Part shown: positions 38,315 through 47,644 of the stretch, piece after piece
How positions within the stretch are numbered: the stretch's first letter is position 1
Layout of the letters: each line of letters starts with the position of its first letter
Assembly: GCF_030053395.1 (NCBI RefSeq)
Contig: NZ_JASGBH010000001.1
Location: 310,001 to 374,000 of the forward strand
DNA length: 64,000 bases
Direction: 5' to 3'
Source: Limnohabitans lacus
Lineage (GTDB): Bacteria; Pseudomonadota; Gammaproteobacteria; Burkholderiales; Burkholderiaceae_C
The notes under the pieces: model-generated
Told to the model about the DNA's origin: nothing
Database searches by the model: none
What the model saw: only the letters and a program-made list of their open reading frames with translations
Program-made: the position numbers and the translations under genes

Positions 38315-39787
38315 TTATTTCAGGATGTCGCCCACGCAGAGGTACTTGATCTCCACATAGTCGTCGATGCCGTGGCTGGAGCCCTCGCGGCCCAAGCCCG
38401 ACTGCTTGACGCCGCCAAAGGGCACGTGCTCGGTGGCCAAAATGCCCACGTTGATGCCGACCATGCCGTATTCGAGCGCTTCACTCACGCGGAAGATGCG
38501 GCCCACATCGCGGCTGTAGAAGTAGCTGGCCAGACCAAACTCGGTGTTGTTTGCGGCGTCCACCGCTTCTTGCTCGGTCTTGAACTTGAAAATCGGCGCG
38601 AACGGACCAAAGGTTTCTTCTCGGGCGCAGACCATGTCGGCCGTCGCGTCGGCGATCACGGTGGGCTCAAAGAACTGACCGTCCAGGCGCTTGCCGCCGG
38701 TCAACACGCGGCCGCCTTTGGCAATTGCGTCCTTCACATGGCGTTCCACCTTGTCGAGGGCCGAGGGCTCGATCAGCGGGCCTTGGTTCACGCCGTCTTC
38801 AAAGCCATTGCCCACCTTGGCGGTTTTGACTTTGGCCGCGAACTTGGTGGCGAACTCTTCGTACACCGACTCCTGCACATAAAAGCGGTTGGAGCACACG
38901 CAGGTCTGACCCGCATTGCGGTATTTGCTGGCGAATGCGCCTTCCACAGCGCTGTCAATGTCGGCGTCTTCAAACACGATGAAGGGCGCGTTGCCGCCCA
39001 GCTCCAGCGACATCTTTTTGACTGTGGGGGCCGACTGCGCCATCAGGATGCGGCCCACTTCGGTGGAGCCGGTGAAGCTGATGTGGCGCACCACGTCGCT
39101 GGCGCACAGCACTTTGCCGATGGCGATGCTTTGCGGGCCGTCGGCTGTGATGATGTTGATCACCCCGGCCGGGATACCCGCGCGGATCGCCAGCTCGGCC
39201 GCAGCCAAGGCCGTGAGCGGGGTTTGCTCAGCGGGTTTGATGACGACGGGGCAACCGGCTGCAAGCGCTGGGGCCACTTTGCGGGTGATCATGGCCAGGG
39301 GAAAGTTCCAGGGCGTGATGGCCGCGCACACGCCAATGGGCTGCTTGAGCACCAACAAACGGCGGTTGTTGTCGAACTGGGGCAGGGTCTCGCCGTTCAC
39401 GCGCTTGGCTTCTTCGGCAAACCATTCCACAAAACTTGCGCCATAGGCCACTTCGCCACGCGACTCGGCCAGCGGCTTGCCGTTTTCTGCGGTCATGAGG
39501 CGGGCCAGGTCTTCGGTGTTGGCAATCAGCAGGTCAAACCAGTTGCGCAAGATGGTGCTGCGCTCTTTGGCGGTCTTGGTTTTCCAGGGGCCCCAGGCGG
39601 CGTTGGCGGCGGCAATGGCAGCTTCGGCTTCGACCGCGCCCAGGTTGGCCACGCTGGCCAAGTGCCCGCCCGTGGCCGGGTCGGTCACGTCAAAACGCTG
39701 GCGACCCACCACCCATTGGCCATTGATCAGGGCGTCGGTTTTGAGCAAAGTCGGGTCGTTGAGCAGGGCGAGGGGGGAGGTGTTCAT
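38315..39787 (-). CDS. gabD: NAD(P)-dependent succinate-semialdehyde dehydrogenase type
   Basis: A 490-residue aldehyde dehydrogenase. It matches the GabD-type family: FINGQWV-like start, then AAITPWNFPLAMITRKVAPALAAG, GSTEVGRILM, ELGGNAPFIVFEDADID with the glutamate, and the active cysteine in NAGQTCVCSNRFYV near residue 285. The protein is 490 residues, as expected. It oxidises succinate semialdehyde to succinate; SSADH and glutarate-semialdehyde enzymes are hard to tell apart. No gabT is adjacent. It runs leftward and ends in a hairpin shared with the Bug gene. The divergent gene is a WYL regulator at 39945. Confidence 0.9.
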   Translation of the reverse strand: MNTSPLALLNDPTLLKTDALINGQWVVGRQRFDVTDPATGGHLASVANLGAVEAEAAIAAANAAWGPWKTKTAKERSTILRNWFDLLIANTEDLARLMTAENGKPLAESRGEVAYGASFVEWFAEEAKRVNGETLPQFDNNRRLLVLKQPIGVCAAITPWNFPLAMITRKVAPALAAGCPVVIKPAEQTPLTALAAAELAIRAGIPAGVINIITADGPQSIAIGKVLCASDVVRHISFTGSTEVGRILMAQSAPTVKKMSLELGGNAPFIVFEDADIDSAVEGAFASKYRNAGQTCVCSNRFYVQESVYEEFATKFAAKVKTAKVGNGFEDGVNQGPLIEPSALDKVERHVKDAIAKGGRVLTGGKRLDGQFFEPTVIADATADMVCAREETFGPFAPIFKFKTEQEAVDAANNTEFGLASYFYSRDVGRIFRVSEALEYGMVGINVGILATEHVPFGGVKQSGLGREGSSHGIDDYVEIKYLCVGDILK

Positions 39788-39944
39788 GGTGATTGGATTT
39801 TCGTGAAGTCAGTGAATTGGGCATGGCCTAAGAAACAGAGCATACCGACCCCGCAATTTCGCAGATGTCACCTGTGCACACTGAATGCGCAGCCAAACAA
39901 GAGCCAAGCATCAAAGCCGTGTTGCGCTCGCTTATATTGCACCA

Positions 39945-40922
39945 ATGGACCACAACTTCACCCGGCTGCTGGACACGCTGGCGGCTTTGCCAGCGCACCC
40001 CATCAAACTCAGCACCCCCCAAATTTTGCAACGCTTGCAGGGCAAGGGGCACAACGCAACGCTGCGCACGCTGCAGCGCGACCTCAATGCCCTGAGCGGC
40101 CATTACCCGGACATCGTCAAGCTGGAAGGCAAACCCGCGCAATGGGGCTGGCGCGAGGGTGCGCCCGTGTTGTTCTTGTCACAAATGGGCCTGCCGCAAG
40201 CCTTGGCGTTTGACTTGTTTGCACGCGAGTTTGCACCCGTCATGCCCGATGAGTTGCAAGCCCTGCTCAAACCCTGGCTGCAAGAAGCCGGGCGCAAACT
40301 GGCCAGCGCGCCGCGCGAACATGCCAGCCAGTGGGCCAAGAAAATCGCCATTCACCACGACGGCCCCCCTTTGTTGCCTGCACGACCATTGCCCGCCACA
40401 TGGGCGCAAGTCTCTAAAGCCCTGTTTGAAGGCAAACAAATCAAGGCGCAGTACCGCGCTGCCCAAAAACCAGATGCCAAGACCTATGTATTGAACCCGC
40501 TGGGCCTGTTGCGCCGCAGCTTGGTCAGTTATTTGGTGGCTACATTTGACGGGCACCACGACCCGCGCCTGCTGGCCCTGCACCGCTTGGACAAAGTGCA
40601 GTTGCTCGATGACCCTGCCCAAGTACCCATCGGGTTTGATTTGAACACCTACCTGAGCCAAGACCGACTGAACATAGCCAGCGGCCAAACCTTGGCGCTG
40701 GAGCTGCACCTGACCCGTGGCGCTGCCGAGCATCTGCAAGACACACCCTTGTCACAAGACCAAACCATTGAAGACCTGCCCGAACAAGCCCATTGGGTGT
40801 GTGTGCGGGCGACTGTGAGCGAGTCGCCGCGCTTGGTGTGGTGGATTTTGGGGTTTGGCAAACGAGCCCGAGTGATCGGGCCAGAGCGCTTGGTCAAGCA
40901 GGTGCAAGAGCTGCGCGGGTGA
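39945..40922 (+). CDS. WYL-domain transcriptional regulator
   Basis: A 325-residue YafY/WYL-type regulator. The N-terminal HTH (residues 1-65) includes FTRLLDTLAALPAHPIKL, TPQILQRLQGKGHNATLRTLQRDL. The WYL domain lies in residues 150-240 (IKAQYRAAQKPDAKTYVLNP, then LVSYLVATFDGHHDPRLLAL), and a C-terminal WCX region ends in LVKQVQELRG. WYL regulators bind small nucleic-acid or nucleotide ligands, and are often near phage defence or DNA repair genes. The ATG at 39945 is preferred. It is divergent from gabD, with about 157 bases between them, and is a few hundred bases from the accessory gene group at 41.2-44.8 kb. Confidence 0.88.
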   Translation: MDHNFTRLLDTLAALPAHPIKLSTPQILQRLQGKGHNATLRTLQRDLNALSGHYPDIVKLEGKPAQWGWREGAPVLFLSQMGLPQALAFDLFAREFAPVMPDELQALLKPWLQEAGRKLASAPREHASQWAKKIAIHHDGPPLLPARPLPATWAQVSKALFEGKQIKAQYRAAQKPDAKTYVLNPLGLLRRSLVSYLVATFDGHHDPRLLALHRLDKVQLLDDPAQVPIGFDLNTYLSQDRLNIASGQTLALELHLTRGAAEHLQDTPLSQDQTIEDLPEQAHWVCVRATVSESPRLVWWILGFGKRARVIGPERLVKQVQELRG

Positions 40923-41200
40923 GGCTTGACAGTCTGCGCCACTGCGCGTGAAGACCCAGCCCGTATTGCGCCCCCCAAAATCATCCAGCTCACACACCGC
41001 GTAGCGCACCTTGTCGTCCATTTATTCTCCGAGCCGGTACTTGCTCACGCACCAATACCGTGACGGGTTCAAAGCGCGTCACGGTCAAGGCGATGCTGAC
41101 CGCTCTTGGCAATGACGGTCAGTCATTGCGGGTCTTTTTCACGAATGACGCGGATGGTGCCAAAAGGCGGGGTAGGTGGTGGGCATGGGTTGAGGTCTCT
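40923..41200. other. Intergenic stretch with a possible gene remnant
   Basis: This 278-base stretch lies between the WYL regulator and the AT-rich UDG-like gene and holds no confident gene. On the minus strand, an ATG at 41021 follows GGAGAATAA and opens a frame starting MDDKVRYAVCELDDFGG. It stays open to 40752, but beyond about 35 codons it runs antisense to the WYL gene. It may be the start of a truncated gene or a short overlapping one. A few other in-frame bits upstream (such as TIRVIREKDPQ then stop) look like fragments, which would fit decay at an island boundary. Confidence 0.25.
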
Positions 41201-42121
41201 TTAACGGTTAAGGCTGGCGCGTTCTTCTATTAGCCTTCTGAGCAATTTTTGGGATGCAGTCAATGCTCTTTGCGCGTCAGGCTTTCGTGCTGAGGGATGA
41301 TGGGTGCGAATGCAATGAATATGACGCTCCACCTCATCCGTCACATCCACCCTGAACTCCCATAAATAGGCCGTTTTTTGACAGTGATTTTGTTTTGGCA
41401 GGGCAACGCACTTGAGGAATTCATTGCGAGTTTTCGCAGCAGATATGCCACTCAAAAACACGATGAAATCAGGCTTCAAGATCTCAATTTGTTTTTGCAG
41501 CAATGCTTTTGAGACTGGCTTGATGAAGGATTCGTAGGGTTCTTTTTTAAAAATAGGGGACTTCCCGTTCCAATCAAAACAGTGCAAATTGCTCCAAACC
41601 CATCCACCGCTGTCATAACCCGAGCCAATTTGAGAGAGTTCTTTATCTAAGCCGCGTAGGTAGTTGTAAAACGTCCTGCCTTTATCATTTTTCGGTTTCT
41701 TCATGCCATTTCCGAAAACCTGCGCATGTCGGTGCATCGTTTTTTCAATGTAATCCTCAAGTGATTGATACTGATACCATAAGGACTCTGCAGGTAGGTC
41801 GTTTGGCCCCCGTTGATGCGTGGGTTTAGCAATAACTTCGGTCGCAGTCAAAGCTTGGCCTTCCTTGTCTCGCTTCAGCAGTGGATACCAGCCAGCAGTT
41901 TCAGCGCCGACCAGCATGATTTTTGTTTTCGAGTTTTCGTAGTTTGCAGAAACAGAAGGCAGAAACAAGCCAGACAATTTATTCAGTTCTGTTTCTTTTT
42001 TCTTTGCTGGATCAAGCTTTTCAGCCCAAAAACCTTCTTGTTTTTTGGGCTCTTTCGTGGCGTCTGCGGCATGCTTTTGAAGCACCTCTAAAAATATTTT
42101 TTTGAGTTCTTCGTTGGTCAT
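41201..42121 (-). CDS. AT-rich gene, uracil-DNA glycosylase-superfamily-like protein
   Basis: A 306-residue protein not firmly recognised. Its motif order resembles the uracil-DNA glycosylase superfamily: KIMLVGAETAGWYPL near residue 67 (like the first glycosylase motif), WSNLHCFDWNGKSP near 181, LQKQIEILKPDFIVFLSG near 208 and IRTHHPSARKPDAQ near 270, where HPS matches the second motif. Similarity is distant and the catalytic residues cannot be assigned. The base composition is clearly more AT-rich than neighbours, so it was probably acquired. It lies 107 bases downstream of the small beta protein of the accessory group on the same strand, so it may be the fifth gene of that group. Confidence 0.6.
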   Translation of the reverse strand: MTNEELKKIFLEVLQKHAADATKEPKKQEGFWAEKLDPAKKKETELNKLSGLFLPSVSANYENSKTKIMLVGAETAGWYPLLKRDKEGQALTATEVIAKPTHQRGPNDLPAESLWYQYQSLEDYIEKTMHRHAQVFGNGMKKPKNDKGRTFYNYLRGLDKELSQIGSGYDSGGWVWSNLHCFDWNGKSPIFKKEPYESFIKPVSKALLQKQIEILKPDFIVFLSGISAAKTRNEFLKCVALPKQNHCQKTAYLWEFRVDVTDEVERHIHCIRTHHPSARKPDAQRALTASQKLLRRLIEERASLNR

Positions 42122-42228
42122 TTAAAAAATCTCCATAGCTGTATGAGTTGGACAAAGTCGCCCAGCGATGCAAGGCGCGGTGAATCTATCACAGATGCCC
42201 GTCTGTATAGATGGCGAAACATCCAACT

Positions 42229-42435
42229 TCACCGCGCCGGTGTCGTCCCCGTTTGCGCCCCTTTTTCGTTGTAGGTGTAGATCCAGCCGCTGCGTTGGAT
42301 GTTGACGCTATGGCTGGTGTAGCCCTTGAGTCCGTCGTTTGGACCATTGCCGCACGGCTTTACAAAAAGCTCTCGGTTTTGGTTGTCATAAACGTGAACC
42401 CAAGATCCGCGTTGGACGGCGTTGGCGATGCTCAT
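42229..42435 (-). CDS. Small two-repeat beta protein
   Basis: A 68-residue protein of unknown function. It has two similar stretches, GSWVHVYDNQNREL (residues 10-23) and SGWIYTYNEKGAQTG (49-63), each with an aromatic/hydrophobic strand followed by a turn with Asn/Asp/Gly; this suggests a small beta-sheet protein. An AGGACATCACC ribosome site precedes the ATG at 42435. The ATG overlaps the stop of the cREC gene (ATGA at 42432-42435), so it is translationally coupled to it. There are many small proteins with this N-terminal style in related bacteria as far as I recall, but I cannot name one. Confidence 0.6.
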   Translation of the reverse strand: MSIANAVQRGSWVHVYDNQNRELFVKPCGNGPNDGLKGYTSHSVNIQRSGWIYTYNEKGAQTGTTPAR

Positions 42436-43574
42436 GGTGATGTCCTTTCAGGAGTGGCGAGCGAGAAACGAGGCTGAAGCAGTCTGCCCCAGCCCGAGAA
42501 AAACAAGTATTTCAGGTCAATGTCCACATACCGTGCATCTCGGCTGTAGTGCAATTCGTGGGCCAGTTCGGTGCACATGCGCAGTGCTGATTGATGCAAT
42601 GCTTCATTGGCTTCGGCATGCGGGCGCTCAGGGGGAACTTCCAGCAATTGATTCAGCACCCAGCACAACGCTTGCAGCCTGCGCTTGGCAGCGGGGTCTT
42701 GGGTGGGCAGTGTGACGCGTAGCGCCCAAGCCATGACGGTGCTGTCACCGGTGGTTTGCAGGTCCTCTACGGTCACATAGGCGGCACGGCGGGCATACAA
42801 ACCATCGATCAGCTGTTGCGCGGCTTGTTTGGGCAGTGGGCCATCGCTATGGCCCAAGGCGCGTGGCTGCTGCGCCGTGCTGGCGGCTAACCAAGCACGG
42901 GCTTCTTCGTGTGCCAGCCAGGGCAGCATCTCGCTGGTCAGGCACAGGGTCAGCGTGTTTGCGTCATGGTCGATGCAGCTTGCGCTGGCCCATTGGGCCA
43001 GGGTTTGGTGGATGCAGGCTTGCGCTTGCGGGTTGTCAATGGGCAGTTCGACTTGCAAGAACGCTGTCAAGGCGTTGTCTTCGTCCATCAGGTGCGTTTC
43101 GTCCAGCATCACCTGGGTCGCACCTGCGGCATAGATGGATTCGATCCACCGCCGCGCCTGTTCGCTGCTGCCCGTGTAGTCGTACCAGATGGGCCAGCGT
43201 GCGGGGTGTTTGGCCCCGGGCTGCAGGGCGGCCAATGCCTCTGGCAGTCCTTGCCGTCGTTTGTTGGGTTGCCGTGGGGGACGGGCTTTTGCCAATTTTT
43301 CTATCTGCGCCACTGCCGCCAGCATGCGAGGGCGTGCGGCGCTGTTGGCGGTGTGAATGTGAATCACCGGCAGCTCAAAGCAGTGGCGGGTCACAGTGCC
43401 CTCTAGCCAAACCAACACGTCATAGCCCGTGCCAACGGTGTCGTCGCCCAAGTCGTGGTCCAAGCTGATTTCGGTGACCTGCTCGGTTTGCAGTGCGGTA
43501 ATCACTTCGTGCGGCCAGCGCATCAAGGTCCAGCCATTGGGGGCGGGGCGAGTGTCATCAAGGAAGATTTTCAT
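42432..43574 (-). CDS. cREC-domain protein with an internally duplicated module
   Basis: A 380-residue protein. Residues 1-90 match the cyclic-phosphate-processing receiver (cREC) domain: MKIFLDDTRPAPNGW, SLDHDLGDDTVGTGYDVL and IHIHTANSAARPRM, with acidic residues as in phosphoacceptor or metal sites. Families of this domain are predicted to act on cyclic phosphates at RNA ends. A basic linker follows (residues 95-108). Residues 136-197 and 246-310 then look like a duplicated domain of about 63 residues (compare SIYAAGATQVMLDE with GLYARRAAYVTVED). The C-terminus has HELHYSRDARYVDIDLK. It overlaps both neighbours by four bases. Confidence 0.7.
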   Translation of the reverse strand: MKIFLDDTRPAPNGWTLMRWPHEVITALQTEQVTEISLDHDLGDDTVGTGYDVLVWLEGTVTRHCFELPVIHIHTANSAARPRMLAAVAQIEKLAKARPPRQPNKRRQGLPEALAALQPGAKHPARWPIWYDYTGSSEQARRWIESIYAAGATQVMLDETHLMDEDNALTAFLQVELPIDNPQAQACIHQTLAQWASASCIDHDANTLTLCLTSEMLPWLAHEEARAWLAASTAQQPRALGHSDGPLPKQAAQQLIDGLYARRAAYVTVEDLQTTGDSTVMAWALRVTLPTQDPAAKRRLQALCWVLNQLLEVPPERPHAEANEALHQSALRMCTELAHELHYSRDARYVDIDLKYLFFSGWGRLLQPRFSLATPERTSP

Positions 43575-43966
43575 GGTGTATCCATGGCGTCAAAGGTAGA
43601 TGGATGTGGCAAGGTGCCCTGTGCGTGCAGGGCGCATAAAGTTCGGCACCCACTGGCGCCCACCCGCAGTTGGGCGTCTTGCCCGCACAGTTCGCAAACA
43701 CTGCGCGAGGCCGTGAGGGCCTGTGCGGCCAAAAGCGCTATCGCGGTCCGCTGCGGCTCAGACATGCCTGAGGTGTCGATGTGGATGCGCAAGCTGCCCA
43801 GTTTTTGCTTGATTTGCAGCACACGGGGTTGCTGCAAGTTCAGGCCCGCTTTTGCCATTTGGGCCAAGCAGTGCACGACCAGCGGCAACCAGCCTGCGTT
43901 GTGCTGCAGTGGTGGCAGGGCGGGGAAGAGCTGGCGCAGTTCGGCCTCGGTCATGTTTGCCCACAT
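43571..43966 (-). CDS. Small protein with Cys-rich zinc-finger-like C-terminus
   Basis: A 131-residue protein. The pattern GWLPLVVHCLAQM (residue 24 on), VLQIKQKLGSLRIHID and CELCGQDAQLRVGASGCRT then LCALH fits a recurring small bacterial and phage domain of unknown function, in which a QIKEKFGGLRFY-like strand precedes a CxxC...CxxxC zinc site. The exact name is not known to me. Two starts are possible: 43966 (used) and 43954, which overlaps the exonuclease stop as ATGA. The 3' end overlaps the cREC gene. Nucleic-acid binding is a guess from the Cys pairs. Confidence 0.65.
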   Translation of the reverse strand: MWANMTEAELRQLFPALPPLQHNAGWLPLVVHCLAQMAKAGLNLQQPRVLQIKQKLGSLRIHIDTSGMSEPQRTAIALLAAQALTASRSVCELCGQDAQLRVGASGCRTLCALHAQGTLPHPSTFDAMDTP

Positions 43967-44790
43967 GGTGCATCCCCCCCAAAGGCGTTGATGTGGATGA
44001 GCCTGCACTGGGAGGCGGGCATGCTGCTGAGCGCTACGTCCAAGGCGCATACACGGTAGCTGTAGCGCTGTGGCGTGTGCTGGTGAGGGTTGGCTTTTGC
44101 AGTGGCGGCGTAATGCAGCACCAGCGTGACCTCCATTCGGGCATCGGTGGGCAGGCAGCCGGTCAAATGGGTCAACCAGTCGCCGTGGTGGGTCAGCGGG
44201 CAGGGTGCTTTGGGGTGGTTCAGCTTGGCCAGCAGTTCACGTTCGGCGGCTTGTTTGTGCAGTCGTTGATACACCTCGGCCAGCAGCTGCGCGTCCAGCA
44301 GTGCGCCATGAAAGTGACGCGCTGACCGGTCCACCCCAAAACGCGCACACAAAGCATCCAAGCTGTTGCGCTGGTTGGGAAAGTTTTTGCGGGCGATGGC
44401 CAGGGTGTCCACCACGCCAGCGATTTGTTTTTGCAGCGCAGGGCGTTTCAGGTGCAGGAGTTCGGCGTTCAAAAAGCCCAGGTCAAAAGGGGCGTTGTGG
44501 ATCACGAGTGTGGCCCCTGCCACAAAAGCCAAGATGTCGTCGGCCAGTTCGGCAAAAGTGGGCTTGTCTTGCAAAAACGCGTCGGTGATGCCGTGAACTT
44601 GTGTGGCCTCTGGGTGGCAACGGCGCTGGGGGTTGATGTAATGGTGCAGAGTGCGGCCCGTGGGCTTGAAGTCAATCAACTCCAAGCAGGCAATTTCGAT
44701 GATCCGTTCGCCATGTTTGGCCGATAGGCCGGTGGTTTCCGTGTCCAAAACGATTTGACGAAGGGGTGTGTGGGCTGGCTGGTGTGTCAT
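43951..44790 (-). CDS. DnaQ/epsilon-like DEDDh 3'-5' exonuclease with C-terminal extension
   Basis: A 279-residue protein. Residues 10-177 match DNA polymerase III epsilon closely. The DEDDh residues are D16 and E18 (LDTETTGLS), D103 (HNAPFDLGFLNAEL), H161 and D166 (FHGALLDAQLL), at the spacing of E. coli DnaQ (12, 14, 103, 162, 167). Residues 178-279 form an extension absent from E. coli epsilon; it includes THHGDWLTHLTGCLPT and YSYRVCALDVALSSMPA. It is either the main epsilon subunit or a paralogue. The usual epsilon neighbour rnhA is absent. It leads the accessory operon; its end overlaps the next gene. It is divergent from alaS. Confidence 0.85.
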   Translation of the reverse strand: MTHQPAHTPLRQIVLDTETTGLSAKHGERIIEIACLELIDFKPTGRTLHHYINPQRRCHPEATQVHGITDAFLQDKPTFAELADDILAFVAGATLVIHNAPFDLGFLNAELLHLKRPALQKQIAGVVDTLAIARKNFPNQRNSLDALCARFGVDRSARHFHGALLDAQLLAEVYQRLHKQAAERELLAKLNHPKAPCPLTHHGDWLTHLTGCLPTDARMEVTLVLHYAATAKANPHQHTPQRYSYRVCALDVALSSMPASQCRLIHINAFGGDAPCGQT

Positions 44791-44811
44791 GTTTTGGAGT
44801 GTGAAGCCGAT

Positions 44812-44832
44812 ATGCGACGTATGTTGTCGCAT
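44812..44832. promoter_or_regulatory. Perfect inverted repeat upstream of the epsilon-like gene
   Basis: ATGCGAC-GTATGTT-GTCGCAT, 7-bp arms and 7-bp spacer, 21 bases upstream of the epsilon-like ATG at 44790. It lies in the divergent region shared with alaS. No adjacent regulator is known. Confidence 0.45.
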
Positions 44833-44885
44833 GTGAACCGCAGAAGCTGACGCCGGCTTCATACCAGAGCCTAAGGCCCCAAACT

Positions 44886-44891
44886 TATAAT
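44886..44891 (+). promoter_or_regulatory. Consensus -10 box for alaS
   Basis: TATAAT at 44886-44891, 29 bases upstream of the alaS ATG at 44921. No clean -35 box was seen at the ideal spacing. Confidence 0.45.
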
Positions 44892-44920
44892 GACCGGCTG
44901 CATCTAAAGCAAAGAACACC

Positions 44921-47644
<2,724 letters not shown>

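Follow-up and report, generated by a model that had tools for sequence, protein, structure and literature searches.

In a stretch of 64,000 nucleotides from Limnohabitans lacus (contig NZ_JASGBH010000001.1, positions 310,001 to 374,000 of the forward strand; hereafter the window), an insert of 5.1 kb (39789-44879) lies between an aldehyde dehydrogenase gene and alaS. It holds six genes, namely five leftward ones for an exonuclease (DnaQ2), a cysteine-rich protein (CysR), a cREC protein, a small beta protein (small-beta) and a protein resembling the uracil-DNA glycosylase (UDG) superfamily, together with a WYL gene on the other strand. With a confidence somewhat short of even, we present this insert as a mobile accessory module of RNA-end repair or defence, whose activities and joint action are both predicted ones. 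This interpretation is based on the variability of the insert among relatives, on the fusion of two of its proteins in relatives, and on the recurrence of CysR beside predicted RNA-repair genes in phages.

Insertion site and gene order

The aldehyde dehydrogenase gene and alaS are shown to be divergent neighbours in all 14 relatives examined, whose alaS regions come from those of 60 genomes with the better alaS matches. The space between the two gene starts is 152-198 bases in seven of them, 991-5039 bases in the other seven and 5133 bases in the L. lacus genome, in which homology to one relative (L092) ends at 39788 and resumes at 44880. As half of the sites are nearly empty and half hold varied cargo, the comparison of these loci (L092-L105) leads us to conclude that the space is an insertion hotspot in the genus. 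The six genes, including the WYL gene, sit within one insert, which is absent or replaced by other cargo in all 14 relatives, so that the proposal of an accessory gene group made in an earlier sequence-only reading holds. None of the six is the best match (E 1e-5) of any kept frame of at least 60 amino acids in the 14 loci. The insert was likely acquired horizontally.

All five leftward genes, on the minus strand, have their frames where that reading had placed them. The first is DnaQ2 (43951..44790, 279 amino acids), a second epsilon-like DEDDh exonuclease gene with a solid match to Pfam RNase_T (E 3.2e-36, 125.8 bits). It is followed by CysR (43571..43966, 131 amino acids), cREC (42432..43574, 380 amino acids), small-beta (42229..42435, 68 amino acids) and the UDG-like gene (41201..42121, 306 amino acids). 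DnaQ2 and CysR overlap by 16 bases, and cREC shares a four-base ATGA with its neighbour on either side, CysR and small-beta; between small-beta and the UDG-like gene there is a gap of 107 bases. These overlaps and the gap are as first described. The CysR start at 43966 agrees with relatives that have the same beginning, and the cREC start also agrees with relatives. Short gene overlaps of this kind are common in bacteria. Two features were absent from the sequence-only reading: the duplicated C-terminal region of the cREC protein, and the WYL gene (39945..40922, plus strand; a start at 39885 is also possible), whose product has the WYL and WCX domains in that order (Pfam E 4e-11 and 1.1e-12), as in the known WYL+WCX transcription factors, with PDB sequence matches to solved WYL-domain proteins. 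Relatives of this protein, with 33% identity or less, occur in 9 of 59 other genomes of the genus. Scans of 39700-45000 for promoters and terminators showed no signal above that of shuffled sequences (0 against 1.8 and 9 against 7.4, respectively); a terminator-like stem at 41109-41129, of a kind no commoner than in the shuffles, lies between the convergent WYL and UDG-like genes.

The cargo at the other alaS loci bears on a different explanation, namely that accessory genes with no common pathway (a CysR-cREC pair, a spare dnaQ copy and a small-beta/UDG-like/WYL cassette) have merely piled up in the hotspot. Indeed, unrelated cargo occupies the same spot in 7 of the 14 relatives, including PIN-domain genes in L095 and L105, an RHS protein with a Tle1-like domain in L100 and NAD-binding epimerase-like genes in L093, L101 and L103. 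A frame in L098 has no match, and a PADLOC scan of 10 frames near alaS in the relatives, some of them outside the gap, gave no useful result. Against such an accumulation stand the three coupled overlaps and the fusion of CysR with cREC described below, and we consider it rather unlikely.

CysR, its cREC partner and HAD genes in phages

On the evidence of fusion and adjacency, CysR and cREC belong together. CysR is fused N-terminally to cREC in two of the nine long cREC relatives. In a second genus (genome G318), a cREC-domain gene lies 82 bases before CysR, and two GmrSD restriction genes come after the pair. These two observations bear out the pair as a unit within the operon first proposed. 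In addition, two CysR and two cREC relatives have longest contigs of identical lengths (6564 and 3160 bases), as expected if the genes occur together, and in one virus (L282) CysR starts 748 bases after cREC.

The receiver domain of the cREC protein (residues 1-88, 43311..43574, minus strand) is solid, as had been claimed, with a match to Pfam cREC_REC (PF20274) of 86.4 bits against a cut-off of 27 (E 2.1e-24). Its residues D6, D7, D39, H40 and D41 are invariant in all seven diverse proteins aligned, the window one included. Behind it are two C-terminal repeats, residues 137-189 (43008..43166) and 249-301 (42672..42830), both on the minus strand, which hhalign aligns to each other with a probability of 93% (E 3.6e-7) and which take an alpha-beta-beta-alpha form in a low-confidence model. 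The protein has no PDB match by sequence, and a PDB fold search with a low-confidence model of the fusion returned mostly receiver domains, none at E 0.001. Relatives are few: 21 proteins among 5.8 billion, nine of them of the long form, one of these nine (P0014) being a fragment of the P0012 kind and one being labelled Limnohabitans sp. by a source. The long form is found in none of 89 other genus genomes (the receiver part alone in 5), none of 99 other family genomes (the receiver part alone in 1) and none of the species contigs scanned. Pattern scans for it in genome and viral contigs gave 38 and 53 pattern matches with no relative among them.

In the parts of PMC9503650 and PMC7824862 drawn on here, cREC is predicted, without experiment, to open cyclic phosphates of RNA ends or ADP-ribose derivatives, and occurs in contexts with WYL and RNA-ligase genes; the former, in the same parts, terms it experimentally uncharacterised and mostly phage- or prophage-borne. 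The insert resembles these cREC-centred neighbourhoods of NAD/ADP-ribose and RNA repair in its receiver-like domain scoring over the cut-off, its conserved aspartates and its WYL gene. It differs in holding no RNA ligase, KptA, sirtuin, 2H or Nudix gene, while the duplicated C-terminal region and the CysR partner are features unmentioned in those parts of the two papers. A WYL relative is present in four of six cREC loci of relatives, 3.2 to 9.1 kb distant. A linkage of WYL with cREC is weakened by these large distances, by the varying cargo (GmrSD and DUF2779 genes) and by the fact that the four are two pairs of alike loci. The short cREC genes of the genus (L086, L087, L088 and L089) are located in loci with WYL relatives; L086 also carries AAA and GmrSD genes and L087 a DUF2779 gene.

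CysR itself is without any match in Pfam, NCBIfam, PADLOC and PHROGs at E up to 1, as is the small-beta protein. Among 66 aligned CysR proteins, W26, Q51, K53, K55, G57, L59, R60, C91 and C111 are invariant and C94 nearly so; C91, C94 and C111 together with H114 suggest a zinc site of the form C-x2-C ... C-x2-H. The structure model is confident (predicted local distance difference test, pLDDT, 89.6; predicted template modelling score, pTM, 0.81). Its best PDB match has an E-value of 1.3, and the CysR alignment finds no match in a PDB sequence search. Five viral models match it at E 0.001 or better, none of them bearing an RNA-repair name. A literature search found no title dealing with the gene set or with a family like CysR, except that a main survey of RNA repair outside the search (doi 10.1093/nar/gkw722) could describe CysR. 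Two overlapping genome samples, 249 others of the family and 299 others of the order, contain CysR relatives in 15 and 12 cases, respectively. Such relatives are common in viruses, with at least 114 viral stretches; cREC is detected in 214.

The viral loci show a further recurrent neighbour of CysR. In the best 80 of the at least 114 viral CysR loci, the commonest Pfam family among the immediate neighbours is HAD_SAK_2, a family of HAD Swiss-army-knife genes (14 of 136 neighbours), and the next family has 3. Among 135 genes at least four places away from CysR, HAD_SAK_2 is not in the 25 of 53 families listed, which leaves room for a single member. With a local model, HAD_SAK is found within 224 bases of CysR in 18 of these 80 loci and in none of the best 80 of the 214 viral cREC loci; the model was built from the 14 viral neighbours and two domains of the bacterial locus L138, which match by construction, and the zero count uses the same model. 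In eight viral loci (L151, L154, L155, L157, L159, L167, L169 and L184) HAD_SAK and CysR share an overlap of 8 bases, like coupled genes. The bacterium G199 carries the CysR and HAD_SAK pair at two loci with calcineurin-like phosphoesterase genes, the families in L138 being confirmed by Pfam. The two copies of this cluster (L133:5733-8184 and L138:947-4558) comprise CysR, the phosphoesterase and a protein with two HAD_SAK domains, and in L138 CysR itself is doubled. HAD_SAK matches in L137, L140, L141 and L238 come from local models only and are not counted as proof. Compared with the HAD Swiss-army-knife RNA-repair genes (Pfam PF18143), the operon in the window has their recurrent neighbour CysR but no such gene, and cREC occupies that place.

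The abundance of CysR and cREC in viral contigs, together with the mostly phage- or prophage-borne state of cREC noted above, favours another explanation, in which former phage genes, a counter-defence or RNA-repair pair, are retained by the host and now serve the cell or decay. We hold this to be very unlikely. The viral contigs scanned lack the long cREC form, Pfam assigns none of the six proteins to the structural or replication genes of phages, and in the CysR tree, which is weakly resolved, the rows linked to this cREC are placed with mostly bacterial rows.

DnaQ2 and the UDG-like gene

Judged by its sequence, DnaQ2 is a second, fast-evolving copy of the epsilon subunit (DnaQ) of DNA polymerase III (Pol III). 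The exonuclease domain is 55% identical to the genome's own epsilon, and the DEDDh motifs are intact in an alignment with eight canonical proteins. What differs is the C-terminal part: the last 100 or so residues (180-279, 43954..44253, minus strand) are unrelated to the normal epsilon tail which they replace, and the conserved end present in all eight normal epsilons shown is missing from DnaQ2 and from both proteins that share its tail. In normal epsilon this conserved tail binds the alpha subunit of Pol III. A match to the NCBIfam epsilon model (250.5-250.6 bits against a cut-off of 222.7) covers only 172 of 231 model positions. In 89 other genus and 199 other order genomes, none of the strongest matches, which are those listed, passes residue 223 of 279. 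A full-length normal epsilon is encoded elsewhere in the genome (G000:C1:194213, 299.6 bits over the full model), which rules out DnaQ2 as the only epsilon of the genome, a possibility that the sequence-only reading had raised against itself. The two other proteins with the tail form one clade with DnaQ2 (support 100/100), whose branch measures 1.36 changes per column and which is placed next to epsilons of the same family. Because the clade has this position, the motifs are kept and the normal end is gone, the evidence points to an origin by duplication and release from the polymerase rather than from a foreign nuclease.

The UDG-like gene has a different history. Its G+C content is 44.5% (third positions 45.9%) while the other five insert genes have 56-62% (68-72%), and for this difference in base composition it probably arrived separately. 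UDG-like motifs had also been claimed, and this part stands only marginally, with a Pfam UDG match barely above the cut-off (25.3 against 24.3 bits, E 1.8e-5); the protein, its alignment and its profile have no PDB sequence match. Relatives are rare: of the other genomes searched, one of 249 from the family and one of 299 from the order have one, as do 7 of 72,556 plasmid records, and neither phage records nor viral contigs yielded any. One plasmid-borne UDG-like gene, from Paraburkholderia, starts 30 bases after the end of a cREC gene; another, from Acetobacter, starts 62 bases after the end of a small-beta gene and has a WYL gene opposite. By a rough estimate that ignores the clustering of accessory genes (about 11-12 places against 7, out of 7.3 billion bases), each adjacency has a chance of about 1e-5, which counts against unrelated genes gathering in the hotspot; the foreign G+C content of the UDG-like gene and its usual occurrence without the other insert genes count for it. 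Ten plasmid records carry small-beta relatives, several of which stand in other settings. After one UDG-like gene there is a 94-residue protein (L142:6852-7136) of short W-rich repeats, to which the small-beta protein has no match at E 0.01.

On a Cupriavidus plasmid, a UDG-like relative lies among ImuA, error-prone polymerase, NucS-domain, LigD and Ku genes. This setting, and the derivation of DnaQ2 from a DNA proofreader, would suit a DNA-repair cassette in which the UDG-like protein removes damaged or modified bases, DnaQ2 trims DNA ends, and cREC and CysR are accessory factors. Such a cassette seems improbable to us, since the Pfam UDG match is marginal, none of the five plasmid relatives matches Pfam UDG at E 0.01, and the cREC contexts published in the cited parts of PMC9503650 and PMC7824862 are RNA ends and NAD derivatives. 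The antiphage DNA glycosylases Brig1 and Brig3, in the parts of PMC11078745 and the preprint PMC13160076 used here, show that UDG-like proteins can be antiviral. Their genes lie in defence islands, and the likeness is a UDG-superfamily-like protein in an accessory locus, drawn by description without direct sequence comparison; we take it as a lead, not as membership.

Proposed action of the insert genes

For the module of RNA-end repair or defence, we propose the following action. The CysR-cREC pair would open cyclic-phosphate ends of RNA or ADP-ribose derivatives: CysR, with its basic hairpin and predicted zinc site, may hold the cut end, and the cREC receiver domain, its conserved aspartates intact, may open the 2',3'-cyclic phosphate. 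The occurrence of CysR beside either cREC or HAD_SAK would fit such an end-binding adaptor. DnaQ2, as an epsilon copy freed from Pol III, would shorten the 3' end or clear away whatever is beyond repair, and the WYL protein may sense a nucleotide signal and control the gene set. The small-beta and UDG-like genes would form a second, separately mobile cassette attacking odd bases in invading DNA. We infer a defence role for the insert genes. A PADLOC scan of the five leftward proteins, without the WYL protein, gave hits at E 0.001 or better for the exonuclease alone, and these were to the generic models DEDDh and PDC-S48; as the gene set has no match, a defence system listed there is ruled out.

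Several results weigh against the module. First, the pair itself is seldom seen: of the 80 viral loci kept for each gene, only 3 around CysR contain cREC and 1 around cREC contains CysR, and L132 is the single locus with cREC in a set of 25 bacterial CysR loci, many of them with no more than 1.5 kb of flanking sequence. The viral cases of HAD_SAK with CysR are mostly from one phage clade, besides L207 with the reverse gene order. Secondly, DnaQ2 is seen with the other insert genes in this genome alone, which also favours a chance gathering of accessory genes; its tail relatives are on contigs of 1188 and 3916 bases with neighbours unread, and DnaQ-like genes in 2 of the 80 viral cREC loci and none of the 80 viral CysR loci are judged too weak for linkage. 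DnaQ2 also still scores above the NCBIfam epsilon cut-off. Thirdly, 9 of 11 UDG-like homologues scanned have no adjoining cREC or small-beta, with 2 having one, and the probable separate arrival of the UDG-like gene points the same way. Finally, the insert has no RNA ligase or kinase, no end-healing kinase or phosphatase is found by Pfam among the six proteins, and no activity is known for cREC or CysR. On balance, the single nucleic-acid processing or defence module of the sequence-only reading is upheld in part: its accessory nature, the one insert, the CysR-cREC unit and the UDG-like gene beside cREC or small-beta elsewhere speak for it, while the DnaQ2 link seen only here and the foreign G+C content of the UDG-like gene do not.

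A bolder version, which we think unlikely, would make CysR an undescribed family and fold, a zinc-bearing RNA-end adaptor alternating between cREC and HAD Swiss-army-knife partners in phages and bacteria, with a captured replicative proofreading exonuclease, detached from DNA polymerase, wired in as an antiviral trimmer of nucleic-acid ends. On the whole, CysR is a family widespread in phages, with a confidently modelled structure for which the PDB offers no match. As a partner fused to cREC in some relatives and elsewhere located beside another predicted RNA-end enzyme, it gives a direct handle on the substrate and the complex of cREC. DnaQ2, if our reading of it is true, would clearly exemplify the conversion of a replication subunit into an accessory enzyme.

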